Below are positions 2,393-21,160 of a DNA stretch of 21,794 nucleotides, in pieces. The position numbers and the translations under genes were made by a program. How positions within the stretch are numbered: position 1 is the first letter of the stretch; the number at the start of each line of letters is the position of its first letter. The DNA is from a virus, in IMG/VR virus record IMGVR_UViG_3300027782_003696, positions 1-21,794 of that record, one strand, 5' to 3'. The notes under the pieces are model-generated. The model made no database searches and was not told where the DNA came from. It saw nothing but the letters and a program-made list of their open reading frames with translations.

Positions 2393-2637
2393 ATGTTTCC
2401 TTTTAACAACCATATTAGGTGTTCAACGGTCTTGTGGTATCTAAATTCGTATACAGGCATGCCTGGACCGGTCCATACAGCTTCTCCTTCGTATACACGG
2501 CAAAACCATAAAAGTTGACCTGACAAGTTACAACGTTTAGGACACCATATGAATTTCAATGTCCATTTTGCACGTTCGTAAAATGCTTGTTCGACCCATT
2601 CTTCAGTTATCTCTATAAGAGGAGTCGGCATTGGCAT
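2389..2637 (-). CDS. Hypothetical small protein
   Basis: An 82-residue protein with many tryptophans and aromatic residues (for example KWTLKFIWCPKRCNLSGQ and LLWFCRVYEGEAVWTGPG). It reads as a compact beta-sheet protein with two or three cysteines and no familiar motif. The chosen ATG at 2637 overlaps the last base of the queE stop (TAATG), the junction type used throughout this window; a GTG at 2649 is possible. The 1-bp overlap with queE suggests co-translation, and a link to queuine-type metabolism is conceivable but unsupported. Confidence 0.7.
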   Translation of the reverse strand: MPMPTPLIEITEEWVEQAFYERAKWTLKFIWCPKRCNLSGQLLWFCRVYEGEAVWTGPGMPVYEFRYHKTVEHLIWLLKGNI

Positions 2638-3497
2638 TAGGTACCCCACTCATTCTTAAATAACGGAACTTGTAACCTATCACTGTATCTTAATCCGTGT
2701 TTCATAGCTATTAACGCTACTGCTTTATTATTCAAAGAATATACACTTTCAACTCCGCCAACTGGCATTAAGTATATATGTCCTTTAAATCCGGCTGTTC
2801 GATATGCGCTAATAGCACACTCGGCGTCTGCAAAATCTTGTTCTGTAGCAATAACAAATTTTAAATACGCTGTACCAACTTCTTCGTATTCACAAACTAC
2901 TTCTGGAAGAATTGCTTCTTCCCACTTTTCACCACTACACGGAAGTTTAGCACTTACACTAAATGTAAGTTCTCTATTCAATTGATGATTGGTAATCTTC
3001 CATTTGATTAAAGATTCTTTGAATTCTGGCGTTAATTTTTGAGTACCGTTTGTTTCGAATGTAATTTCTTTTAAGCCTGCCATTTTAGGATGATCCAACA
3101 AATCTGGATAAGCACGTTGCCAACCCAACAATGGCTCACCTCCTGTTATGACAAGATGTTCATCTTCCCAGCGACGATGTGGAAGTATTTCCATGATGCG
3201 ATTTACAATACCACTAGTTTCCATCATTGGACTAAGTTCTTTAAAGTCTGGATGCCAACTAGCATAGCTGTCGCAACCTGTAGTCACTAACGGTAAATTT
3301 TCGTATTTTGGGTAAGGGTATAATTCATGTACTGAGGCAAGGTCATCTGCCTCTGTGCTTAACTCCCCTCTAGGCATGCCAAATCCTTGGCACTTAAAGT
3401 TACAGCCAAATGTACGCAAGAAGATTGAGGGAACACCCATATAACGGCCTTCACCTTGTATAGAATAAAATAGTTCTGCTATTTTAATTTTGCTCAT
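2637..3497 (-). CDS. queE: 7-carboxy-7-deazaguanine synthase QueE (radical SAM)
   Basis: QueE converts 6-carboxy-5,6,7,8-tetrahydropterin to 7-carboxy-7-deazaguanine, the step after QueD on the preQ0 route. Supporting motifs are the N-terminal SIQGEGRYMGVPSIFLR, the first cluster cysteines in FGCNFKC (C32, C36), the GCDSYASW segment (C75) that corresponds to the family's CDTxYxW, TGGEPLL (118-124) for SAM binding, and TFETNGTQ. The third cluster cysteine lies 38 residues after the second, where the usual radical SAM spacing is two, so a loop is inserted within the cluster motif. The length (286) is larger than many bacterial QueE (about 220). It starts in an ATGA overlap with a CDGSH-like gene. 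With dpdA and the queD-like gene it points to 7-deazaguanine DNA modification. Confidence 0.9.
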   Translation of the reverse strand: MSKIKIAELFYSIQGEGRYMGVPSIFLRTFGCNFKCQGFGMPRGELSTEADDLASVHELYPYPKYENLPLVTTGCDSYASWHPDFKELSPMMETSGIVNRIMEILPHRRWEDEHLVITGGEPLLGWQRAYPDLLDHPKMAGLKEITFETNGTQKLTPEFKESLIKWKITNHQLNRELTFSVSAKLPCSGEKWEEAILPEVVCEYEEVGTAYLKFVIATEQDFADAECAISAYRTAGFKGHIYLMPVGGVESVYSLNNKAVALIAMKHGLRYSDRLQVPLFKNEWGT

Positions 3498-4395: not shown

Positions 4396-4534
4396 TTTCC
4401 CAACAGCTATAACTTGCGTCAGTTTGTATATTTTTATAGAATATAGTATCCTCTTCTACTCCGCCATTTTTACCAATAAACCATACTTCAAATTCTTTAT
4501 TATCACTTATCCAATGGCTTCCTACTTTAATCAT
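4352..4534 (-). CDS. Hypothetical small protein, SH3-like
   Basis: A 60-residue protein beginning MIKVGSHWISDNKEFEVWF and ending in a segment with SCWESAFRSRF. The order (KVG-x-x-W, a beta strand, then a C-terminal xxFxxRF) resembles small DUF1653-type or SH3-like beta-barrel proteins common in T4-like phages; this is a loose pattern match. The ATG at 4534 is preferred because it overlaps the phosphoribosyltransferase stop as ATGA and has GGTGGA just upstream. An ATG at 4570 would add 12 residues but overlaps 40 bp and lacks a ribosome site. Function unknown. Confidence 0.7.
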   Translation of the reverse strand: MIKVGSHWISDNKEFEVWFIGKNGGVEEDTIFYKNIQTDASYSCWESAFRSRFKETQNYT

Positions 4535-5028
4535 TTTGTCCACCAATTTTCCCAGGGAAAATCTATCCATACATCTTGTTCGGATTTGTTTACTTCAAAT
4601 CCTACGTAATTCATTTTAACATTACACTTACTAGATAAATTATCAACCAATACAGTAAATCTTACATTGTTGGTCCAAATAGTATTCCAAATTGGGTCAT
4701 ATGGTAAACAGCTACTTTTCCAATCTTCTATTAACCAATTAAAAGTTGCACCAGTATCATTAATGTCATCAACTATTAAAATCTTTTTTCCATTATATGC
4801 ATCTTCAGACATACCGCAATTGGTTACACAATCGCCACCATCACGCAGACTAATGTCCAGACTATTCATCTTAACATTAAGATATTGACTGATCATCACA
4901 GCAGGGATTAACCCGCCTCTTGTAAGCCCTACCACATAATCTGGACGCCAGCTGTCTATGGTTATTTCTCTACAAATATTAGACACTAATCCTTGCACGT
5001 CTTTATGGTCTAGTATTTTCTTTTTCAT
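4531..5028 (-). CDS. Type I phosphoribosyltransferase
   Basis: A 165-residue type I PRTase, which transfers phosphoribose from PRPP to a nucleobase. The PRPP-binding loop is clear: ILIVDDINDTGATF (83-96) with the acidic pair D87-D88. The TRGGLIPA segment (36-43) is the PPi loop of the purine PRTase family. Length and motifs fit hypoxanthine/xanthine-guanine PRTases (hpt/gpt type), so purine salvage during infection is the likely role, but the specificity-setting hood region is not recognisable. It follows the subtilase stop by one base (TAA-T-ATG) and shares its operon. A salvaged base could be guanine or a 7-deazapurine; the latter is speculation suggested by the queE/dpdA context. Confidence 0.85.
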   Translation of the reverse strand: MKKKILDHKDVQGLVSNICREITIDSWRPDYVVGLTRGGLIPAVMISQYLNVKMNSLDISLRDGGDCVTNCGMSEDAYNGKKILIVDDINDTGATFNWLIEDWKSSCLPYDPIWNTIWTNNVRFTVLVDNLSSKCNVKMNYVGFEVNKSEQDVWIDFPWENWWTK

Positions 5029-5029
5029 A

Positions 5030-7060
5030 TTAAAACCTTATATTAGTTAATAAACCAACTACGTTAGAAGTAACTCCGTCCTGTCCTTGTACATTTTGTC
5101 TATTTTCGATAAATGCTAAAGTATTATTTCCAGACTTTTCCTTTAATTTATAATATACACCAAACCTATATTCAGGTGTTATGGGACGCAAATCAATTTT
5201 ATTGGTAGTAACTACATCATAGTTTGAGTCTAGACCGACTGGAATATTGCCTGTGGCTTGAGCACTGTAGACAGTAGGCGGTTGATATGCCATTATACCT
5301 ATTAAGTTATTATCATTTAACTTACGCTCAACTCCTAAATTCCATGTCCAGCTCATAATAGGACTAACATTATTAATAAGGCTGTTACTAGCACGAGTAT
5401 TAGTTACTCCGTTCATCACAGTAGCATATACCTGTGTTAAATTATCAACGTTATAATCTAATCCAATTCCGGCAAATGTAGTTTGACTACTGTTAGCATC
5501 GTAAGCGGTTCCATAACCGGTTAATCCATTTCCTAACCAACTATTTTTTTCTGTAAAACTACCAGCAGTAAATTTTACAGTAGTATTAGATTCCAAATTT
5601 TTATAATAACTAAACTCGGTCATAACAGGTGCTAAGTTTGGATCACCTAAACTATTATCCATATACATACTCATTTCTATATTATCAACTCTGCTAGATG
5701 TATGATTGGTGTAATTGTTAAACTGGCTATAGTTATTTCTACTCATATACGGCATTGCGGATTGTTTAACATTAAAATCAACTCCGGTTGATCCTGTAGC
5801 AGTAAGATTATTACCTGCAACATAATAATCCCTGCCAATTCCGTCTACTAACATAACATTAGATATTTTTCCAGTACCGGCTGACCCACTTGTAGTAATC
5901 AATGCCGCTGAGGCAGTTGCGGTCTTACCACCGTTTATTACATTGCCAGCAGTCATTAAGGATAATCCGCCTGTAGGCTGTGTGGCCTTGTTAAGATCTA
6001 ACAATCCTTGTCCCATTACGTTTGGGTCATAGCCCGGAATATTTTTATTTGCAGTTGTTAATACTAGCGTTGTTAACGCAGATCCTGTTAATTGTGGCCA
6101 TTGTTGTTTTAAAATAGCAATAGCACCACTTACAGCGGGAGCGGCCATACTAGTTCCACTCATTGAGTATAGTCCAGAATTGTTAATAAAGGTCGGTACT
6201 GTAGATGTTATGGAATTTCCTGGGGCTAAAATAAAGAATTGACTAACAGTATATTTGTCTTGACATTTTCCAGCATAAACAACAGCACATAATGTTCCTG
6301 CCTGATTACTAAACGAACTAATTTTATTAGCATTAGTATCCCAACTACCAACAATAATCATTCGTCCGCCGAGTATTAGATTACCTTTACTGTCAGTAGC
6401 AGTGGCTAGACTAGCCTGTGCTCCTGGAACTTTTGATCCTTCATTACCTGCGGCCATAACTAGAACAGTTTGACCTGTTAATGCCGATGCCCATTGTTGT
6501 GGATTTAATCCAGCGGGCAACTTTCCTGTATTTGAAAATGAAGTAGCATATATTCCTGGAGAAATTAATGAAGAATTAAGATTCCCAGATACACTGGCAC
6601 TAATGTTTGCTACAGTAGCATTATTAGCTGATGCCCAACTTAATGCTGATAACATTGTTGATATACTAATAAGTCCATTGTTGGTAATTTTACCAATCAT
6701 TAAATTTGCATCAAACGCCACACCTTCTATTCCAATATTATTACGATTAGCGGCCGCAATACCGGCTACGTGAGTGCCGTGCCCGATCTTATCTTGAATG
6801 CCTGTTCCTGTAAAGTCTTTAGAAAGTGATATTTTTCCATTTTGGAAATCTACGTTTTTAGTATCAATACCTGAATCCAAAATAGCAATAGTGCTATCTT
6901 TACCAGTAAAGCCTCGAGCGTATGCCGCATCGGCGTTAATTGCCGGTAGTGTTCGACTTTTATAATATTCAGTTGTGTTCCAATATTTTGTAGTGTTTGA
7001 TTGAGAATGTACTTGGGCAGATAGCAAAGCAATACTGGCCACTAAAATCTTTAACTTCAT
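5030..7060 (-). CDS. Secreted subtilisin-like (S8) protease with outer-membrane-barrel-like C terminus
   Basis: A 676-residue exported serine protease. A signal peptide (KLKILVASIALLSAQ, cleavage near 19) precedes a complete S8 catalytic domain: D62 in AILDSGID, H94 in GHGTHVAG, oxyanion N206 in AAGNEG, and S304 in SGTSMAAP. C258 and C266 could form a disulphide. No inhibitor-type propeptide fits in the roughly 30 residues between signal and domain. After about residue 370 comes a Ser/Thr/Asn-rich linker, then alternating amphipathic strands (about 470-676) ending VVGLLTNIRF with a terminal Phe. This is the signature of outer-membrane beta-barrels and of autotransporter subtilases such as SphB1. 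Surface display on the infected host is inferred. The gene has its own consensus promoter and an AGGAG ribosome site. A full secreted subtilase is unusual in a T4-like phage and suggests capture from a bacterium. Confidence 0.9.
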   Translation of the reverse strand: MKLKILVASIALLSAQVHSQSNTTKYWNTTEYYKSRTLPAINADAAYARGFTGKDSTIAILDSGIDTKNVDFQNGKISLSKDFTGTGIQDKIGHGTHVAGIAAANRNNIGIEGVAFDANLMIGKITNNGLISISTMLSALSWASANNATVANISASVSGNLNSSLISPGIYATSFSNTGKLPAGLNPQQWASALTGQTVLVMAAGNEGSKVPGAQASLATATDSKGNLILGGRMIIVGSWDTNANKISSFSNQAGTLCAVVYAGKCQDKYTVSQFFILAPGNSITSTVPTFINNSGLYSMSGTSMAAPAVSGAIAILKQQWPQLTGSALTTLVLTTANKNIPGYDPNVMGQGLLDLNKATQPTGGLSLMTAGNVINGGKTATASAALITTSGSAGTGKISNVMLVDGIGRDYYVAGNNLTATGSTGVDFNVKQSAMPYMSRNNYSQFNNYTNHTSSRVDNIEMSMYMDNSLGDPNLAPVMTEFSYYKNLESNTTVKFTAGSFTEKNSWLGNGLTGYGTAYDANSSQTTFAGIGLDYNVDNLTQVYATVMNGVTNTRASNSLINNVSPIMSWTWNLGVERKLNDNNLIGIMAYQPPTVYSAQATGNIPVGLDSNYDVVTTNKIDLRPITPEYRFGVYYKLKEKSGNNTLAFIENRQNVQGQDGVTSNVVGLLTNIRF

Positions 7061-7068
7061 AACAACTC

Positions 7069-8172
7069 CTAGTCTGTTAGTTTACTTAATAACATTTTAC
7101 TATGAAAAAACCTTTTTGTCAATTGTTCTGCTTGTTTTTGGACAAAGGGAATAGTTGTTTTATAATTTTCTATATATCCTACTATAGTTTTAACTAATAA
7201 ATGCCGATTTTGGACATAATCCCCCCAAGACTCAGTCCATAGACTAGGATATTTGAACTGATCTTCGTACATTTCGGTATAGCTTAACCGATCTGGAACC
7301 ATTGGAATAGCACCTACTAACGCTCCTTCATAACAACTAATGCCCAATGTTTCCTGTAAATTAGCACTAAACACTATTTTGGATTCACCTAATAGGTTGT
7401 GGTATTCGTTTTTACTTAACTGTTGATCTTGGCATACTACAAATTCATATTGTGGTAACTGATCTTTTAAGTCTCGGAATATCTCAACTTGTTTTTCTGG
7501 AGCAATACGATGTGGAAAAAGAATTAAATCACGTTTGGGCATATTTTTATACGGAGTTAAGATATCATCCATATATTCCATTGGCCAACCTGTGCGTACA
7601 ATCTTTGAAAACTTACCTTTTAACACTTCTTCTAGTTCTTCTTCGTACCAGGCATTTTCATAGATTGATCCGCTGTTGAGTAATTCACGAAAGAATAATT
7701 CTATGTGGAAGTTTGTAGCAAAGTAGTTATGATCATAACAATGATAAAAACTTTTTTCAGCATTTCGAACCCAAGGAGCATCGCCGATCAACCGACCTAG
7801 GAAATCGTGTTCGTCATAACTTCCAGCGTGCCAAAGTCCGTGAATAGTTACAGGCATCTCTAACAACGAGCTCATGTATTTGAGATTGATGACCCCAGGA
7901 TGCCAAGCATCAGTAAAAATAAAATGATCTCCTGCTCTAACAGATCCGGAGCAGAATAAGCGACTAATCTCCTCAACCTGTCGAGACTTATATATATTGG
8001 TGCCACCAAAATTAAGGAAAGCGCCAGGAGTTGTGGCACTAGGAATATCTTCAGGACCACAGATAACTTGAACATCATGACCTGCCTTTTTAAGTAGTTT
8101 AGGAATGTGAGATTTCCACTCGCCTGTATAACGAGTGGAAACAGCCTCGAGATCAACGAGAAATACGGTCAT
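7069..8172 (-). CDS. GT-B fold glycosyltransferase (GT1/GT4-like)
   Basis: A 367-residue putative glycosyltransferase. The C-terminal half shows a typical nucleotide-sugar-binding unit: LILFPHRIAPEKQ (around 216-228, the first strand and a conserved R/K region), and ETLGISCYEGALVGAIP with the E-x7-E pair (E274, E282) of retaining GT-B enzymes. The N-terminal half (MTVFLVDLEAVSTR, then FTDAWHPG) forms the acceptor domain. The ATG at 8172 is chosen for its AGAGAG ribosome site and the 20-bp overlap; an ATG at 8223 would overlap the previous gene by 71 bp. Acceptors could be modified phage DNA, virion proteins or host surface glycans; the sequence does not decide. It is the last gene of the long clamp operon, and its 3' end carries the subtilase promoter. 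Confidence 0.8.
   Translation of the reverse strand: MTVFLVDLEAVSTRYTGEWKSHIPKLLKKAGHDVQVICGPEDIPSATTPGAFLNFGGTNIYKSRQVEEISRLFCSGSVRAGDHFIFTDAWHPGVINLKYMSSLLEMPVTIHGLWHAGSYDEHDFLGRLIGDAPWVRNAEKSFYHCYDHNYFATNFHIELFFRELLNSGSIYENAWYEEELEEVLKGKFSKIVRTGWPMEYMDDILTPYKNMPKRDLILFPHRIAPEKQVEIFRDLKDQLPQYEFVVCQDQQLSKNEYHNLLGESKIVFSANLQETLGISCYEGALVGAIPMVPDRLSYTEMYEDQFKYPSLWTESWGDYVQNRHLLVKTIVGYIENYKTTIPFVQKQAEQLTKRFFHSKMLLSKLTD
7094..7122 (-). promoter_or_regulatory. Consensus sigma-70-type promoter for the subtilase operon
   Basis: On the minus strand: a perfect -35 TTGACA (7122-7117), a 17-base spacer, and -10 TAAAAT (7099-7094). It lies inside the last 20 codons of the glycosyltransferase gene, 34 bases before the subtilase ATG at 7060. 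It would give the subtilase, PRTase, small protein and HIT gene independent transcription by host-type RNA polymerase. Confidence 0.75.
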
Positions 8173-8425
8173 CTCTCTTGCCTTTGTAAGGTTCGCGAAC
8201 ACGAGCTGGTTCTGGACGACCATCTGCTTCTCGACGTGCCTTGCGCTCTAGGTACTCTTGAGTACGCTGGAATGCTTTGTAGTCGACACTGCGATATAAA
8301 TCCGCGGGGTTAAATTCAATTAGATTGATCCTACAATGATCAAGCCACTTGTCTAAGTCATCAAAAATCTTTGAGACTTCAGGTTTCAAACGCAGGGTTT
8401 TTTTAATGTAGGCAGGAATTGCCAT
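8153..8425 (-). CDS. Hypothetical basic small protein
   Basis: A 90-residue protein, MAIPAYIKKTLRLKPEVSKI at the start, then a helical central part (IFDDLDKWLDHCRINLIEF) and a very basic, probably unstructured tail (RKARREADGRPEPARVREP). The charge pattern fits a nucleic-acid- or acidic-surface-binding protein, but I know no family. It has a good AAAGGA ribosome site and overlaps the glycosyltransferase start by 20 bp. GC content at its 3' end looks a little higher than its neighbours. Confidence 0.75.
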   Translation of the reverse strand: MAIPAYIKKTLRLKPEVSKIFDDLDKWLDHCRINLIEFNPADLYRSVDYKAFQRTQEYLERKARREADGRPEPARVREPYKGKRDDRISR

Positions 8426-9536: not shown

Positions 9537-10694
9537 TTATCCTATTATTCTTTTTAAGGATTCTTCTGGATCCCACTCTCGACAATATTTTTTGCGATTA
9601 GTACGACCCTCTTTGGTATCAGGATCATAGTCAATCCAGTTAAACTCTATGCCATTACACTTGGGACAATGGCTATCGTAGTTGGGGTCTTCAATTCTTT
9701 CTTCACCTTTGCCCACCCATCCGCACGTTTTATCTTCACACTCGAGGTCTACGGGCTCAGGTGGTTGATTAACCCAACTGCTAGTATCCCAGGTATATCC
9801 ACTCCAGCTGACTACATCGGCGATTGTATTAAATTTACCATATTCCCATTCGCCAAAATTTTCACCGTCCCAATAGGCCGAACCATATGTTGTACCGTAA
9901 TGTCGCCACGTGCAACTATAGTATCCCGGGATTGTAGGCTTTTGTTTATTAAACTTAAATGTCTTAGATTTTTCCCAGGTGCTTGGGCTTGTACCATATT
10001 CAGGATGTCCCCAATCTTTCTCTTCGGGCTCGTAATTTTCCCATTCACCATTTTCTTTAACTAGGCACATAGTAAAGTCTGAGCTCTTACCGTCTGTGCT
10101 ACCGCCCCAATTATCAATGTCTTCCCCGTTATAAGTCACAGCATTAACAAGTTCTTCTCCGTCAATATCATCGTACTGCAGAGTTAATTTAGTAATATCA
10201 AATGGTTCGGTTAATTCGATCTCGCCTTCGAAGAAAGTTCCTTTTTCGTTGCTGGATCCTATGAACACAACGGTGCCTTCTGGAGATTGCCCTACCCACA
10301 CTTCGTTATCACATTCCCATTCTATACTATCATTGCTACATCCATCAAAGCTGTCAAGTGATGCTTCTACAACAGTTTCCCCATGTTCATCTTCAATTTG
10401 CAGTGTTCCAGCGTTTTTATTCACACCATTAACGTGTGCAAGATTATCACATTCGTACCAGGATCCGGGAAGGAATGGGAGTCGATCTGCATCAAGTTCC
10501 ATATCATCTGCGGCATCATTATTCCACGAAATATCAGATAAATCAACTTGGTTATCCATACAGTAGTCCCATGCTTCACGTTCTACGGTTCCCATAACCT
10601 TTTCTCCACCATAGCCCCACAATGATATTTTGTAGGTGCGTGGTGTGAATTTTAATACTTCTATAAGTTTTTGTTGATCTTCTAGCGTTGCCAT
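9537..10694 (-). CDS. Acidic protein with C-terminal zinc ribbon
   Basis: A 385-residue, strongly acidic, tryptophan-rich protein of unknown function. The N-terminal 65 residues are helical, the centre is beta-rich, and there are two related-looking units with a PGxxYxC and WDG pattern (near residues 76 and 268: FLPGSWYECDN and IPGYYSCTWRHYG, the latter followed by AYWDGENFGEW). The C terminus carries four cysteines, C319-x4-C324 and C343-x2-C346, spaced as a zinc ribbon. The AYWDG...W...W-G-Y-x-W part recalls DUF551-like phage domains; this is a weak resemblance. The acidity could mimic DNA. It lies two bases downstream of the Bax-inhibitor-like gene and three bases upstream of the small membrane protein gene. 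Confidence 0.75.
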   Translation of the reverse strand: MATLEDQQKLIEVLKFTPRTYKISLWGYGGEKVMGTVEREAWDYCMDNQVDLSDISWNNDAADDMELDADRLPFLPGSWYECDNLAHVNGVNKNAGTLQIEDEHGETVVEASLDSFDGCSNDSIEWECDNEVWVGQSPEGTVVFIGSSNEKGTFFEGEIELTEPFDITKLTLQYDDIDGEELVNAVTYNGEDIDNWGGSTDGKSSDFTMCLVKENGEWENYEPEEKDWGHPEYGTSPSTWEKSKTFKFNKQKPTIPGYYSCTWRHYGTTYGSAYWDGENFGEWEYGKFNTIADVVSWSGYTWDTSSWVNQPPEPVDLECEDKTCGWVGKGEERIEDPNYDSHCPKCNGIEFNWIDYDPDTKEGRTNRKKYCREWDPEESLKRIIG

Positions 10695-10696
10695 GA

Positions 10697-11395
10697 TTAG
10701 TCCTTTTTGTCGCCAAATAGTTGTAATAGATTAATAAACAAATTGATAAAGTCCATATACAATGTTAATGCTCCGCGAATCTCAGCAACATCAGTGGTAT
10801 CGGTACTTATTTCTTCTCGGATCTGTTGTGTATCGTAGGCTGTTAATCCAAGAAAGATAATGATAGCCAAAGTACTGATCATCATCTGCATAGCGGTACT
10901 ACCGATAAAAATATTAACAATGCTGGCAATAATAATAGCAATGAGACCGACAATCATAAACTTACCAAGACTGTCTAAACTACGTTTGGTAAAGTATCCA
11001 TAAAAACTCATAGTGCCAAATAAAATTGCCGCACCCATAAATGCTGATACAATACTGCCCATTGTAAATATTGCAAAGATCATTGCCATACTTAAACCCA
11101 TCAATGCCGCAAATCCGTGTAAGCATAATTGAGCAACACTCTTGCTAGGTTCTTTTGCCAGGACCATGCCAACACCAAACACTGCCGCTAATGGTGCAAA
11201 GATTACAATCCATTTCATTACGCCTGTAAAAAAGAATTGTAACAACACCGGGCTAGATCCTACAAAATAACTTACTAGCATTGACACAACTACTGCCATC
11301 CCCATATGACCATATACACGGCCCATTGCGCTATTAATTTGTTCTGCTGAACGATAATTTATAACTTCATTTTCTGCATAGTTTGAATCAAACAT
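10697..11395 (-). CDS. Bax inhibitor-1 / YccA family membrane protein
   Basis: A 232-residue integral membrane protein of the BI-1 (TMBIM/YccA/YetJ) family. Seven hydrophobic helices are visible at about 31-46, 60-80, 89-111, 114-134, 146-165, 168-187 and 207-226. The family signatures are present: GLTAYDTQQI with D188 and ALTLYMDFINLFINLLQLFG with D215, which correspond to the paired aspartates that set the pH-dependent calcium leak in the bacterial homologue YetJ. The cytosolic N terminus (IDSNY-like, then INSAMGRVYGHM) is also typical. In bacteria YccA binds and restrains the membrane protease FtsH; a phage copy might protect membrane proteins from FtsH or alter ion flux before lysis. That role is inferred. 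Phage carriage is unusual. Confidence 0.9.
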   Translation of the reverse strand: MFDSNYAENEVINYRSAEQINSAMGRVYGHMGMAVVVSMLVSYFVGSSPVLLQFFFTGVMKWIVIFAPLAAVFGVGMVLAKEPSKSVAQLCLHGFAALMGLSMAMIFAIFTMGSIVSAFMGAAILFGTMSFYGYFTKRSLDSLGKFMIVGLIAIIIASIVNIFIGSTAMQMMISTLAIIIFLGLTAYDTQQIREEISTDTTDVAEIRGALTLYMDFINLFINLLQLFGDKKD

Positions 11396-11396
11396 T

Positions 11397-11603
11397 TTAG
11401 TTCTCCTTGATTTTCTTTTTGCGAGTAGCTTTAGGTTTTACTTCTGTTAAACTATCCAATGCGGCCTGTACATCACGTACTAGCTCATCCCAATGTGTTT
11501 CAAATTCTATACGACCATCTGGATGTTCTATACGAGTACTGTGGCTTCCTCGGATCACTACAGGTTCGGCCATTTCTACTGTTTCTTTTTTCTTTCTAGG
11601 CAT
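11397..11603 (-). CDS. Hypothetical small charged protein
   Basis: A 68-residue protein with lysine-rich ends (MPRKKKETVE at the start, TRKKKIKEN at the end) and a short central domain (HPDGRIEFETHWDELVRDVQ). No recognised family. It overlaps the dpdA stop by 8 bp and its stop is one base before the start of the Bax-inhibitor-like gene, so it is co-translated in the clamp operon. Confidence 0.7.
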   Translation of the reverse strand: MPRKKKETVEMAEPVVIRGSHSTRIEHPDGRIEFETHWDELVRDVQAALDSLTEVKPKATRKKKIKEN

Positions 11604-13248
11604 TTTCTATTAATCCTTCCTCTAGGGCTCTTAATTCATCGTCATCTGGATTGGCTAAATCAATTTCTTCCTGTTCAGTGACAACCGTTTCAAATAAATT
11701 GTTAAACGTATTCTGTGCAGGGCCACCTTGTAATCGAGCACCTTCTAAACTTCGAAGGAATGCCCCAGCTTCATCAATCATATCCATTGCTTCTTTTTTA
11801 GTTGTGGTATTAAACAGGTCTTCAACAAAGTTGGCAAAGTATAAAATATTGCGTGGAACCCAATCACTATACTCGTCACTCATATCCGCTGATTTAACTT
11901 TTTTCCAAGCTCTCCAATCAATCTTATCTTTTGTCTTGGCAACTTCAATATCCATTAAGTGTTGGGCACGTTGTACAGCAACAATATGACAGTATACATT
12001 ATGACCCATCATAAGAGCGTAGGCAAAACTATCCCAACTTGTTTTATTTGGAATTTTACCTAGTTTATTAAGTTTAGGAACTTCGTGATAGTGTTCTGGC
12101 TTAAGATGATCAAATTTAATCTGAGCACCCTTGCTGTCTACACCTAATTCGGCATCCGTCTTACGCTTACCTACATTATAGTAAGCAATGTCTGCCATAG
12201 TAAGTCTTCGACCTATTTCTGATTCAAATGGGAATGGGATGTCTGATCCCGAGAGTGATTTATTATCTGGCGCTTTGTCCATAATAACACTCCAACGTTT
12301 CGGATTGTGTATTGCGTTGGTGTAGACAAGTCCGTGTGCGGTTGCAATAAACGGTGACGCACAGTCAAAAGAGATGGTAAGTTCTTCATTAATATGTTTC
12401 CTTATTTGTCTTTGTATCAGAGTCAAGTAGCATGACCAATCTAACTGAGCGGTGCCCAGGAAGTGAATCCAATCTTTACCAGTGAGCATACCTTCGTCAC
12501 GCATGATCATCAGTCGCTTCAATGTAATGTCCATCTTACACATATTAGCACCACCAAATGCCCAACCTTCTGCTTCACGACCCTTATACTTGCCTTTAGG
12601 ATCGCTGAACTCTTTTACCCCCTGATACCACTTTTCAGCAGTATCCCAATCACCGCCTTGTAATACGTTAAGCCATTTAGTTTGCCCCAATCGATTTTTT
12701 AAGAAATAATCGTTATTAAACTTGGTCTTTTCCAAACAATCTTCAAATGTTTTCAATCCTGTCTTTGGACTATGGATATGATCACAGGCCCAGGTCGGTA
12801 CGTCTAACATCATTGACCAATCAGCAGTGACTTCTAACCACTCTAAAATACTTTGGCGTGTTTTATTTGCGGCAGGACCATCAAAGTTCAACCAATCAAA
12901 CTTTAGAACACCTTTACCGATCTGGTATCCACCCGAGTCGCCTAGGATCATCGTAGCACCACGATCGCGTTGCTGGATCATTGATTCCTGTGTTAGACTT
13001 TTGTTCAAATCTAACTGTGCGTGACCTGCTGAATACAGTCCATACTTATATGTAAAGTATCCATCTTCTGGATTAAGAAAATTCATACCTTCAATCCCAC
13101 GATCAAATCCTGCTGGAATACGGGCCTTTGGTACAAACTCTTCTAATCGTTGTTTAGCTACATAGGTACTATAGAAACTACTGATAGCTGGCAAATACAC
13201 AGCATAGTCTTTCTGTAGCGGGGTTAGGTTAACTGGTGGTCTTTTCAT
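11596..13248 (-). CDS. dpdA: DpdA-like 7-deazaguanine DNA transglycosylase (TGT superfamily)
   Basis: A 550-residue protein of the tRNA-guanine transglycosylase superfamily; DpdA members exchange guanine in DNA for a 7-deazaguanine base. TGT landmarks appear in the correct order: GDSGGYQ (103-109; TGT base-binding D102), MLDVP (D149; TGT D156), NVLQGG (194-199), GWAFGG (228-233; TGT G229/G230 substrate loop), FLGT (263-266), and SFDCASPFIATAHG (293-306), in which D295 matches the catalytic nucleophile D280 of the family's FDCVxPTRxARNG motif. The zinc-site cysteines (CxCxxC) are missing, though an HN pair (H416-N417) remains where the zinc-site histidine would be. It is much longer than tRNA TGT (about 380). 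It overlaps a small structural-type gene by 20 bp, directly after the sliding clamp. A tRNA-acting enzyme is the alternative but less likely in this context. Confidence 0.85.
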   Translation of the reverse strand: MKRPPVNLTPLQKDYAVYLPAISSFYSTYVAKQRLEEFVPKARIPAGFDRGIEGMNFLNPEDGYFTYKYGLYSAGHAQLDLNKSLTQESMIQQRDRGATMILGDSGGYQIGKGVLKFDWLNFDGPAANKTRQSILEWLEVTADWSMMLDVPTWACDHIHSPKTGLKTFEDCLEKTKFNNDYFLKNRLGQTKWLNVLQGGDWDTAEKWYQGVKEFSDPKGKYKGREAEGWAFGGANMCKMDITLKRLMIMRDEGMLTGKDWIHFLGTAQLDWSCYLTLIQRQIRKHINEELTISFDCASPFIATAHGLVYTNAIHNPKRWSVIMDKAPDNKSLSGSDIPFPFESEIGRRLTMADIAYYNVGKRKTDAELGVDSKGAQIKFDHLKPEHYHEVPKLNKLGKIPNKTSWDSFAYALMMGHNVYCHIVAVQRAQHLMDIEVAKTKDKIDWRAWKKVKSADMSDEYSDWVPRNILYFANFVEDLFNTTTKKEAMDMIDEAGAFLRSLEGARLQGGPAQNTFNNLFETVVTEQEEIDLANPDDDELRALEEGLIENA

Positions 13249-17762: not shown

Positions 17763-18518
17763 TTACTCGCAATTCCATTTGCGTAATGATAACGCTTTAC
17801 GAGTTGGTTTACCATTTGGCTTTTTCATTGGACCCGGCATACCGCCCATACGAGCACAGAAACTCTTTCGACGCTTGGCCGCTTTGCTTCCTGGTTTGAG
17901 TTTACTTGGTTTGGTTGTAACTGCTGTTTGAAGTTTTGATCCAGGATGTTCTCTACGATAACTGGCAACACCTTTCTTATTCAATCCACCGTTCTTATTT
18001 TTACCGGCTTTGCGATGCCATGCGGCTGATTCGTCAAGGAATGTTGATGCAAATTTTTCACAAAGTCCTTGTATATCTGTGTTACTAGTTTCTTCTAAAG
18101 TATATTTGTTATGCTCGTCGTCTTGGCTTGAATCGATGTATCCGCAATATACTTTACGTACATTGCTGTTATTAATTAAATCAGTACAACTTTCTCCGTA
18201 ACGCTCATCCATATCTTCGTTACACGGGCTACATGTAGTAATGATAATACTGCCTTTTGGAATTTTTCCGTATTCAGCTTCATATGACTCTATTGCTACA
18301 CGCTCGGCATGTTTACGTGTCCCGTCATCTGTTTCTTCATTGACAGATATAATCTTATTATGATCATTGTCCATAACACAGGCAGCTACCATTCCGTAAT
18401 GATCTGGATTTTCTTGTTGACCTTTTATAACTGCTTCACAAAGTTCTAAAAGAATTTGATCAAGGTGAGCTCGATCATGTATTTTATAATCATCAGGTAC
18501 AAATTCTAAAATTTTCAT
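17763..18518 (-). CDS. Zinc-dependent deaminase fused to a DUF6321-like C-terminal domain
   Basis: A 251-residue two-part protein. Residues 1-150 form a cytidine-deaminase-superfamily domain: H70-A71-E72 (zinc ligand and proton shuttle) and TTCSPCNEDM with C99, then C111, as the remaining zinc ligands. The wide spacing of 11 residues between C99 and C111 is nearer to RibD-type deaminases than to dCMP deaminase. Residues from about 163 (ESAAWHRKAGKNKNGGLNKKG) to the end (RRKSFCARMGGM, then LSLRKWNCE) match the pattern of the phage-associated DUF6321 domain, which is very basic and has invariant-looking Cys and Trp. Substrate unknown: a nucleotide, a pterin or a DNA base are all possible. Overlaps the upstream structural gene by ATGA. 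The fusion itself is noteworthy. Confidence 0.8.
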   Translation of the reverse strand: MKILEFVPDDYKIHDRAHLDQILLELCEAVIKGQQENPDHYGMVAACVMDNDHNKIISVNEETDDGTRKHAERVAIESYEAEYGKIPKGSIIITTCSPCNEDMDERYGESCTDLINNSNVRKVYCGYIDSSQDDEHNKYTLEETSNTDIQGLCEKFASTFLDESAAWHRKAGKNKNGGLNKKGVASYRREHPGSKLQTAVTTKPSKLKPGSKAAKRRKSFCARMGGMPGPMKKPNGKPTRKALSLRKWNCE

Positions 18519-21160
18519 TTTTTACGTTTTTTTGGAAGTACACGTTTTGGCAACTTACTAATATCTTTGCCAGTATCAGCACGATTAAACTCTTGAGCTA
18601 CATTCAGTTTGATACCTACCTTTTTGGCAAACGCTGGATTGTGTGCAGCCGCCGCCATTGTTCTTGCCTGTGCTTGACTAACGCTACGCTCATCTACTTC
18701 GGCATCTAACCGTTCTTGTAATTTATTTTGATAAGAATCATTGTCTTCTCTATTCATTGAATATGGCATAGCCATGTTTTTTATATTATTTACAGAGACA
18801 GCGTCTGTAGTACCTACTGGAGCTGGGGTAGTTGCATTAGATGTACGATCTGGAAATAATTTATTTGCTCTCTGGATAACGTCAGGGGCTAATGATAATC
18901 CCTTAGTATTCATAGGACCTGCTGGTCTGTTTAACTGTAGCATACCTGTTTTAGTAGTAAAATCTCCAACTTGTAAATTTGCCGCGTTTCTACCTAATTT
19001 ATAATCGTTTATTTGAGTTGGATCTGTATATGGAGGACCTGGCAACCCTTTACCTATAGCCGCAATATAAGCACCCCACCACCATGGCCAACTTTTAGCT
19101 GTATCAGTTTTAGCTGGAGTAGGCTGACTAAAACTTACAGGGCGGCCACCTGTTGTTTGATTTCCAACTGAAGTATTTGCGCTGTCTACGTCTGTGCGTG
19201 TGGCTTCATATACGTGCCCTTGGTCATGCTGACTTTGTAGATATTGCGATACTGTAACCATATTCTGTTTGCTCATTGAAACTTTCTCTTCAACCCACTC
19301 TGGCAAGTTTTCATCGTTCTTCATAGTGTTGGCTAACTCTTTACAAGAACGAATAATTGTGAGTAGATTATTTTTAACCATATCTACTTCATCGCTATAT
19401 TCGTTATACTCATCACCTTCCGCCATACCTTGCTTTTCTTTTGCTTTCTTTTCGTCCCATTGCTTATTAAATTCTGCTCGAGCTTTTTCTGCACGTATGC
19501 GACTAGCTTCATCTGACTTGCGACCTGCATCAATATCTTTGCCTAATTTACGTTGCGGATTAGATAAAGTCTCTGCTACGCCAGCATTTTTTAAATTTGC
19601 TTGATATGCAACTTCAGTGCTATTAGCCATTTGTTGTTTAAAATTATCAACAGCCCCACCGTTGCCACTGATTGGAGCGCCTTCTTTGTTCAACTCACTC
19701 TCTGATTCTAAACGTTCAATATCTGCTTTAATTTTTAGAATCTTTTTTACGGCGATCTCTTTAGATTTTTGTCTGCCATAAAATGGGGAATCGCTGTAGT
19801 CGTTGGCTACAGAATATCCGGCAAGTATTGTTAAATGTGATAGATAATTTTTTAAATCAGGAAGATGCTCTTTGTCTCGAGGAATAACCCACTTATTATT
19901 TGAAGAAAGAGCCACTCTCCAGGAAAGAAAATCTTTATCTCCAGGTCGTTTGTACCCTTGACCTACTTTCTCTCCGGGCCCAGCTGGCCCAATATCTTCA
20001 TTTTCTTTTATTAAATCTTTGTTTTCAACCGCGTTGTTGAGCTTGTTAAGTAGATTCTCTAAATATTCATTGCCTTCAACAGTAGTTGATCTTTGAGTAT
20101 CTTTAAAAAGTTTTGTTTGTAACTTTTGTATTTCATCAGGAGACATGTCTTTTCCTGGCTGCCATGTGCCTTGCTTTATCTGATTTATAACATCATTTGC
20201 TCTTTTAAATTTTACAGGATTCTTTTTAATAGAGTCATCTTTTTTAACATTCTTATTAACTTTTGTTGTAGTTACAGGTTGTTGAACTGCAGGTGTTGTT
20301 GTCCCAGGTTGTTGAACTGCAGGTGTTGTTGCCGCAGGTGTTGTTGCCCCAGGTGTTGTTGTCCCAGGTTGTTGAACTGCAGGTGTTGTTGCCGCAGGTG
20401 TTGTTGCCCCAGGTTGTTGAAGTTGATTATCTGTTGGATTAGTATTTTGTGGTTGTTGTGTTGGCTGTAAGTTTTGTGGTGTTGCCTTTTCTTTTTCTGC
20501 AGGTGATTTTTCTTGAGACGGTTTATTGTTAGATTGATTAACCTCAGGGTCCGCAATCTTTTTTATTCCAGGATATTCTTTTTCAACTTCTTTTCTTTGG
20601 TTGTCAGCTTCAACCTGAGTAATTTCTCCTCTTGATAATTTTGCATTTATATCCTGCAGTCGTTTTTCTTTTTCTATCATGGTATCGCTTAATCCGATAT
20701 TCTTTCTAACTAATTGACTTATTTGTTGTTCTTGGCTAGCATTAGTATCCATTTGATTCCCGAGTTCTGCCATTGCCGCTTGCGTTGAATTAAGTCCGGG
20801 ATATTTTTGACGTAATCTATTTACAACCTTAGAAACTATTTCAGATGCTGGTCCAGCATCTAAATTAGGTGATGAAAATTCAGCTAATGCCTTCTTATAC
20901 TTTTCTCTGCGTGGAATAGTCTTAGTTTTATCTTTGTGTTTTCCGCCACCTGTTTGAGTCTTTAACGGACCTTGTCGAGGTTTTTGTTTAACGGTATCGG
21001 ATTCTGAAGTAAGTAAATTATCTCCAGGTCTGCGTTTTATATTACCCACAGGCATCGATACACTTGCTATTGATCCTGCACTACTAGATCCACCACTAGA
21101 AGTTTCTAACACATAACGTGTTTCTTCTTTGTTAGATATTTTTTTGAATTCATTAGTCAT
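18515..21160 (-). CDS. Large low-complexity structural-type protein
   Basis: An 881-residue, mostly disordered protein of unknown function, probably a virion or head-interior component. A Gly/Ser-rich N terminus (ETSSGGSSSAGSIASVSMP) leads to a charged helical region, then a Gln/Pro/Thr repeat tract (about residues 249-297, units such as TTPAVQQPG). A helical unit at about 588-640 (YSDEVDMVKNNLLTIIRS, then LPEWVEEKVSMSK) looks like the conserved folded part and is a type I associate with marine phage structural proteins. The tail is very basic (KLPKRVLPKKRKK). It overlaps the CTS-bearing gene upstream by 8 bp and the deaminase gene by 4 bp. The exact 60-bp duplication in the tract shows recent slippage. 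Confidence 0.75.
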   Translation of the reverse strand: MTNEFKKISNKEETRYVLETSSGGSSSAGSIASVSMPVGNIKRRPGDNLLTSESDTVKQKPRQGPLKTQTGGGKHKDKTKTIPRREKYKKALAEFSSPNLDAGPASEIVSKVVNRLRQKYPGLNSTQAAMAELGNQMDTNASQEQQISQLVRKNIGLSDTMIEKEKRLQDINAKLSRGEITQVEADNQRKEVEKEYPGIKKIADPEVNQSNNKPSQEKSPAEKEKATPQNLQPTQQPQNTNPTDNQLQQPGATTPAATTPAVQQPGTTTPGATTPAATTPAVQQPGTTTPAVQQPVTTTKVNKNVKKDDSIKKNPVKFKRANDVINQIKQGTWQPGKDMSPDEIQKLQTKLFKDTQRSTTVEGNEYLENLLNKLNNAVENKDLIKENEDIGPAGPGEKVGQGYKRPGDKDFLSWRVALSSNNKWVIPRDKEHLPDLKNYLSHLTILAGYSVANDYSDSPFYGRQKSKEIAVKKILKIKADIERLESESELNKEGAPISGNGGAVDNFKQQMANSTEVAYQANLKNAGVAETLSNPQRKLGKDIDAGRKSDEASRIRAEKARAEFNKQWDEKKAKEKQGMAEGDEYNEYSDEVDMVKNNLLTIIRSCKELANTMKNDENLPEWVEEKVSMSKQNMVTVSQYLQSQHDQGHVYEATRTDVDSANTSVGNQTTGGRPVSFSQPTPAKTDTAKSWPWWWGAYIAAIGKGLPGPPYTDPTQINDYKLGRNAANLQVGDFTTKTGMLQLNRPAGPMNTKGLSLAPDVIQRANKLFPDRTSNATTPAPVGTTDAVSVNNIKNMAMPYSMNREDNDSYQNKLQERLDAEVDERSVSQAQARTMAAAAHNPAFAKKVGIKLNVAQEFNRADTGKDISKLPKRVLPKKRKK
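20290..20414 (-). repeat. Exact 60-bp tandem duplication in the Pro/Gln/Thr tract
   Basis: Bases 20291-20350 are repeated without a change at 20351-20410, and the match runs one base to the left and four to the right. Each unit is a multiple of three and encodes 20 residues, so the frame is kept. Shorter 12- to 15-base subrepeats (encoding TTPA and QQPG units) make up each copy. Confidence 0.95.

Follow-up and report, generated by a model that had tools for sequence, protein, structure and literature searches.

Superinfection exclusion is mostly known from small membrane proteins or lipoproteins that block receptors or entry. Proteolytic release of surface proteins is described for NalP of Neisseria meningitidis, a subtilisin-like autotransporter and lipoprotein which, according to PMC5472700, releases other surface proteins of its own cell and has a passenger that is itself released by self-cleavage. 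Here we describe a phage gene for a protein of comparable layout. It lies on a 21.8-kb IMG/VR virus fragment, which was analysed over its whole length of 21,794 nucleotides and is referred to as the window. The gene and its parts are as follows.

7069..8223, minus strand: upstream operon neighbour, a glycosyltransferase-like gene, context only (homologue annotations; 8-base gap)
7066..7070, minus strand: Shine-Dalgarno-like AGGAG directly before the ATG, sharing bases with the upstream gene's stop codon (by inspection of the sequence)
5030..7060, minus strand: gene for a 676-aa S8 protease with predicted C-terminal barrel (ORF with ATG start; Pfam S8; homologues)
7004..7060, minus strand: putative signal peptide, residues 1-19 (by eye; script on relatives; low pLDDT at residues 1-22)
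6008..6904, minus strand: S8 catalytic domain, residues 53-351 (Pfam; model pLDDT mostly >90)
6875..6877, minus strand: catalytic D62, invariant
6779..6781, minus strand: catalytic H94, invariant
6443..6445, minus strand: N206, oxyanion-hole Asn, invariant
6263..6289, minus strand: cysteine pair C258...C266, invariant
6149..6151, minus strand: catalytic S304, invariant
5711..5980, minus strand: linker, residues 361-450, with short strands at 361-430 and a helix at 431-446 before the barrel (models)
5033..5710, minus strand: predicted C-terminal beta-barrel, residues ~451-676, ~12 strands, last residue Phe (models, fold search, amphipathicity, bacterial homology)
4531..5028, minus strand: downstream operon neighbour, a phosphoribosyltransferase, context only (Pfam Pribosyltran 1.5e-12; 1-base gap)

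A sequence-only reading had proposed a secreted subtilisin with a complete S8 triad and an autotransporter-like outer-membrane anchor. The N-terminus, MKLKILVASIALLSAQVHS/QS, reads by eye as a Sec-type signal peptide, and signal peptides were flagged in 43 of 48 related ORFs by a crude script. Pfam Peptidase_S8 matched residues 53-351 (1.2e-39). Together with the Asp-His-Ser triad, which stands in its family contexts, this match places the protein in peptidase family S8 (subtilases). D62, H94 and S304 form the complete triad that the earlier reading had named. All three are invariant in an alignment of 36 distinct homologues from lake and marine viral contigs, in which long members were trimmed to the shared part, and N206 can be added to them. 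C258 and C266 are the only cysteines in the close homologues examined, and they probably form a disulphide.

The C-terminal part was modelled in two ways. Full-length prediction by AlphaFold2 with the 36-homologue alignment gave a mean pLDDT of 86 and long strands running from 452 to 674. When the C-terminal domain was modelled alone, antiparallel strands were again obtained (pLDDT 88, pTM 0.83), and since this separate model reproduces the domain, an artefact of the full-length model was rejected. The strand number of the predicted barrel is 11-13 by count from the models. A Foldseek search of the PDB with the barrel only returned OpcA, OmpG, KdgM, TodX, AlgE, porins and others. Indeed, the best 50 matches were outer-membrane beta-barrel proteins or complexes containing them, all bacterial except the yeast TOM complex. 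The scores were modest (best E 2.8e-4, TM ~0.4), and no solved autotransporter barrel was named among these 50. A sequence search of the PDB with the barrel gave nothing useful. Compared with shuffled sequences, the strands are more strongly amphipathic (p 0.0008). The C-terminal residue is Phe in 33/36 and Tyr in 2/36 family ORFs, with Phe at 3.3% overall. PF03797 (Autotransporter beta-domain) matched none of the 36 members, which places the barrel outside that Pfam family; the eight bacterial kin scanned likewise showed no PF03797, and Pfam has no model for their barrel either.

In type Va secretion a passenger precedes a C-terminal 12-strand outer-membrane barrel, an arrangement that is predicted here by the models and PDB matches, and the N-terminal signal peptide and the C-terminal aromatic residue for BAM are both present. 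Classical autotransporters also have a helix within the barrel pore ahead of strand 1, for which the helix at 431-446 is a candidate. The strand-rich C terminus ending in Phe was thus confirmed, and barrel prediction and Foldseek, which had been suggested as checks, yielded a confident barrel model with outer-membrane matches, the opposite of the barrel-free model named as a refutation. The barrel had been expected from residue 370; the barrel itself held up, and its start was moved to near 451, behind the linker and the helix. With the barrel model and the S8 and barrel homology to bacterial autotransporter-like proteins described below, the autotransporter-like reading stands. From sequence and models, it is very likely that the protein is an active protease that is exported and anchored in the outer membrane.

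By profile search the barrel has homologues in bacteria, namely the C-terminal domain of S8 autotransporter-like proteins (best E 3e-34). The barrel profile matched 51 of 289 genomes sampled from the class of the alphaproteobacterial MAG G052 and 6 of 399 from the order to which the Bordetella-titled MAG G051 belongs. At 20 extracted bacterial loci the profile matched the C-terminal part of long ORFs, and all eight kin scanned with Pfam carry S8. The neighbours are, by eye, chromosomal housekeeping-like genes in the three loci inspected, one of which (L262 in G668) adjoins resolvase- and integrase-like genes. Resolvase- and integrase-like neighbours were noted for L280 of G668 (9635-11818, minus strand), a bacterial chromosomal S8 homologue with 34% identity over 633 columns that groups with phage L087 in the tree. 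The phylogeny against bacterial autotransporter-like proteins that had been called for was run on 56 proteins with a midpoint root. The phage rows fall into one 100/100 group that includes one bacterial row (L262) and is nested among bacterial rows with S8 and barrel. This topology is consistent with an ancient transfer from bacteria, followed by occasional exchange.

On the phage side, searching with the single sequence yielded just L002 (72%), and profile searches were needed for the other homologues. These include L083 and L084 at 75-80%, L085/L086 at 51% and L102-L118 at 39-51% identity. L087/L088 and L134/L138 are lipoprotein-like, with lipobox N-termini and lengths of 1020-1048 aa, and members of L120-L141 are mostly 830-930 aa long. 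The additional N-terminal region of L120-L141, ~250-300 aa before the S8 domain and common to diverged members, could be a pro-domain or chaperone. Where dS is unsaturated, pairwise dN/dS lies at ~0.05-0.13 in both protease and barrel; judged by these values, both parts of the gene are under purifying selection. An assembly accident was rejected because of the low dN/dS (~0.06 at unsaturated dS) and since the same gene and neighbours occur on other contigs at 72-80% identity. Among 50,697 phage records of INPHARED no full-length homologue was found. The earlier statement that T4-like phages rarely carry such proteases is therefore right for INPHARED and has to be amended for a single broad clade of uncultured jumbo phages, in which the gene is recurrent. 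Other S8 proteins were noticed on viral contigs. L153, L155, L157, L160, L161 and L169 form a family of 646-655 aa with a signal peptide and a C-terminal Trp, which may be a second autotransporter-like type. L089, L090, L091 and L171 are small (223-238 aa) and have signal peptide-like starts.

On most homologous contigs the gene lies within one replication and nucleotide-metabolism block of T4-superfamily jumbo phages. Members of this block are polB, gp13603, the 11596-13248 gene, a glycosyltransferase and/or phosphoribosyltransferase, HIT, QueE and an exonuclease, and the same block is found in lake and marine phages. On eight of the diverged contigs (L120-L141) there is a 1-base overlap between the S8 gene and a gene that is thymidine kinase-like by its motif. 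S8 identities co-vary with those of the exonuclease (Mantel r 0.94, n=20, 0/2000 permutations) and of polB (Mantel r 0.91, n=10, 0/2000 permutations), and weakly with those of orf8438 (0.37). The gene is present in 31 and absent from 52 of 83 loci with a complete interval; as this set was gathered via S8 and the glycosyltransferase, 31/83 is not a frequency. Absence from so many relatives suggests that the benefit is conditional. The 52 loci hold no obvious substitute; other exported proteins were flagged within that interval in 14 of them by a crude script, mostly dehydrogenase-like or Bax-inhibitor-like by eye. A second phage group (L106, L107, L114-L118) lacks the backbone genes of the window and branches within the freshwater section of the tree, and this placement points to transfer between phages. 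Among 26 contigs searched, four carry the T4-type capsid gene gp23, at a distance of 50-83 kb from the S8 gene. By polymerase, the nearest isolated phages are Phosso, Atu_ph07, CBB and GAP32 (349-490 kb). They infect Gram-negative hosts, which we count in favour of the outer-membrane reading. A comparable block of polymerase, glycosyltransferase and QueE is present in Phosso with no S8 gene annotated, and none is annotated in 37 kb around the polymerase of Atu_ph07.

Further genes of the window were recorded. QueE is encoded at 2637-3497 (minus strand; PHROG 1.3e-48). The 550-aa product of 11596-13248 (minus strand) has no Pfam match and carries a GDSGGYQ motif resembling, by eye, tRNA-guanine transglycosylases; together with QueE it hints at a possible 7-deazaguanine DNA modification. 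At 10697-11395 (minus strand) a Bax inhibitor-1 / YccA-like membrane protein is encoded (Pfam Bax1-I 1.3e-53). A link between this gene and the S8 gene was dropped, because several related phage loci that have no S8 gene contain Bax-inhibitor homologues. Positions 20270-20560 (minus strand) encode Pro/Thr/Gln-rich repeats of the 881-aa protein of 18515-21160, whose C-terminus matches PHROGs including virion structural proteins. The T4 late promoter TATAAATA occurs 0 times in the window vs 3.3 expected by chance, which has little bearing on timing.

We propose that the gene encodes a phage-borne autotransporter-type (type V-like) subtilisin acting as a host-surface sheddase, an explanation that, taken as a whole, we give an even chance. 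The protein would be translated within the replication and nucleotide-metabolism operon, at an early or middle time if gene order is a guide, and the replication-type neighbours suggest that it acts while infection is under way and not as part of the virion. The signal peptide would direct it to host Sec. The ~12-strand barrel would then be inserted into the host outer membrane by BAM via the C-terminal Phe, which, as in bacterial S8 autotransporters, would display an active subtilisin on the outside of the infected cell. There it might cut host surface proteins in a NalP-like manner, for example phage receptors or adhesins, and such cleavage would lower superinfection and the loss of progeny on debris. 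That remodelling of the host surface is the main role is a tentative assignment by analogy, held with somewhat less than even confidence; among its possible benefits we favour receptor stripping.

Other roles were weighed against this one. The same models, fold matches and signal peptides that argue for export and membrane anchoring would suit an envelope protease at the end of infection, which would degrade envelope proteins in the outer membrane or periplasm, weaken the outer membrane and aid lysis or the release of progeny. This is unlikely, however, for a gene that lies among replication and nucleotide genes and, on the four contigs with gp23, far from that capsid gene; no neighbour of the S8 gene was recognised as a lysis gene, and most homologues are without such a location. 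The nucleotide-metabolism neighbours and the lake and marine samples would also agree with a gain of nutrients, in which a surface subtilisin digests extracellular protein for phage synthesis during a long infection. A free enzyme would arguably serve this purpose better than an anchored one, the window shows no linked gene for a peptide transporter, and we regard this role as improbable. An outward weapon, in which the released subtilisin passenger attacks rival phages, nearby bacteria or grazers, has a precedent in the self-cleaving NalP passenger (PMC5472700), but no junction cleavage site was identified and there is no target evidence, so that its probability is similarly low.

Other phage proteins also contain S8 domains, among them a cyanophage protein named baseplate wedge, and the window protein could in principle belong to the virion, for instance as a protease of a spike or tail. 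Signal peptides and lipoboxes, the membrane-barrel fold, the replication block and the distance from gp23 all disfavour this, and we think it very improbable. Least probable of all is passive host-derived cargo with no function for the phage. Bacterial homologues do exist and the gene is patchy, but low dN/dS (0.05-0.1), an invariant active site and co-divergence with the backbone over large distances speak against cargo, recent cargo included. Host-surface shedding thus remains our preferred reading. Its broadest form is that a wide lineage of lake and ocean T4-superfamily jumbo phages took over type V secretion from bacteria as an infection gene inherited vertically, which installs a surface protease, strips receptors and excludes rivals; we hold this to be possible, though less likely than not. 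If true, a conserved phage autotransporter protease would open another route to exclusion, in which lake and marine phages alter the surface of the infected host enzymatically. The data suggest that this group of large phages of lakes and the sea may reshape the host surface by a bacterial secretion trick.

No paper on such a phage protein was found in titles and abstract openings, which is weak evidence as most subscription papers are outside this scope, and the text of a jumbo-phage survey (PMC7824862) contains neither 'subtilisin' nor 'signal peptide'. Isolated Bacillus phages (Goe3, SP-15) have the S8 domain in common with the window protein; the match is confined to that domain, and their hosts are without an outer membrane. 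A0A6J5TBB6 of BFVD, an uncultured Caudovirales phage S8/S53 domain protein, is the single full-length fold match there (TM 0.78, 29% identity) and is annotated at domain level only. Among bacterial proteins, Ssp of Serratia marcescens (PDB 8e7f, an S8 autotransporter) was the best PDB sequence match (3.6e-21) and also a fold match, both confined to the protease part. The profile of EprS-type autotransporter serine peptidases (NF051851) matched the window protein with 74.4 bits and 33/36 homologues, but within the protease part and below its cut-off of 1700 bits. The bacterial proteins P0007 (L179) and P0008 (L185; 673 aa) have the same S8-then-barrel order, with barrel homology of 1.2e-25 and 3.7e-8, respectively. 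They differ in being chromosomal and bacterial, and their ~32% identity covers only the S8 part by BLAST. From NalP the window protein differs in that it is phage-encoded and not a lipoprotein; the solved NalP barrel is absent from the best 50 fold matches, and shedding by the window protein is an analogy. With NalP (PMC5472700) it shares a subtilisin-type passenger, a signal peptide and a predicted C-terminal barrel, and lipoprotein forms occur in the phage family too (L087/L088, L134/L138).
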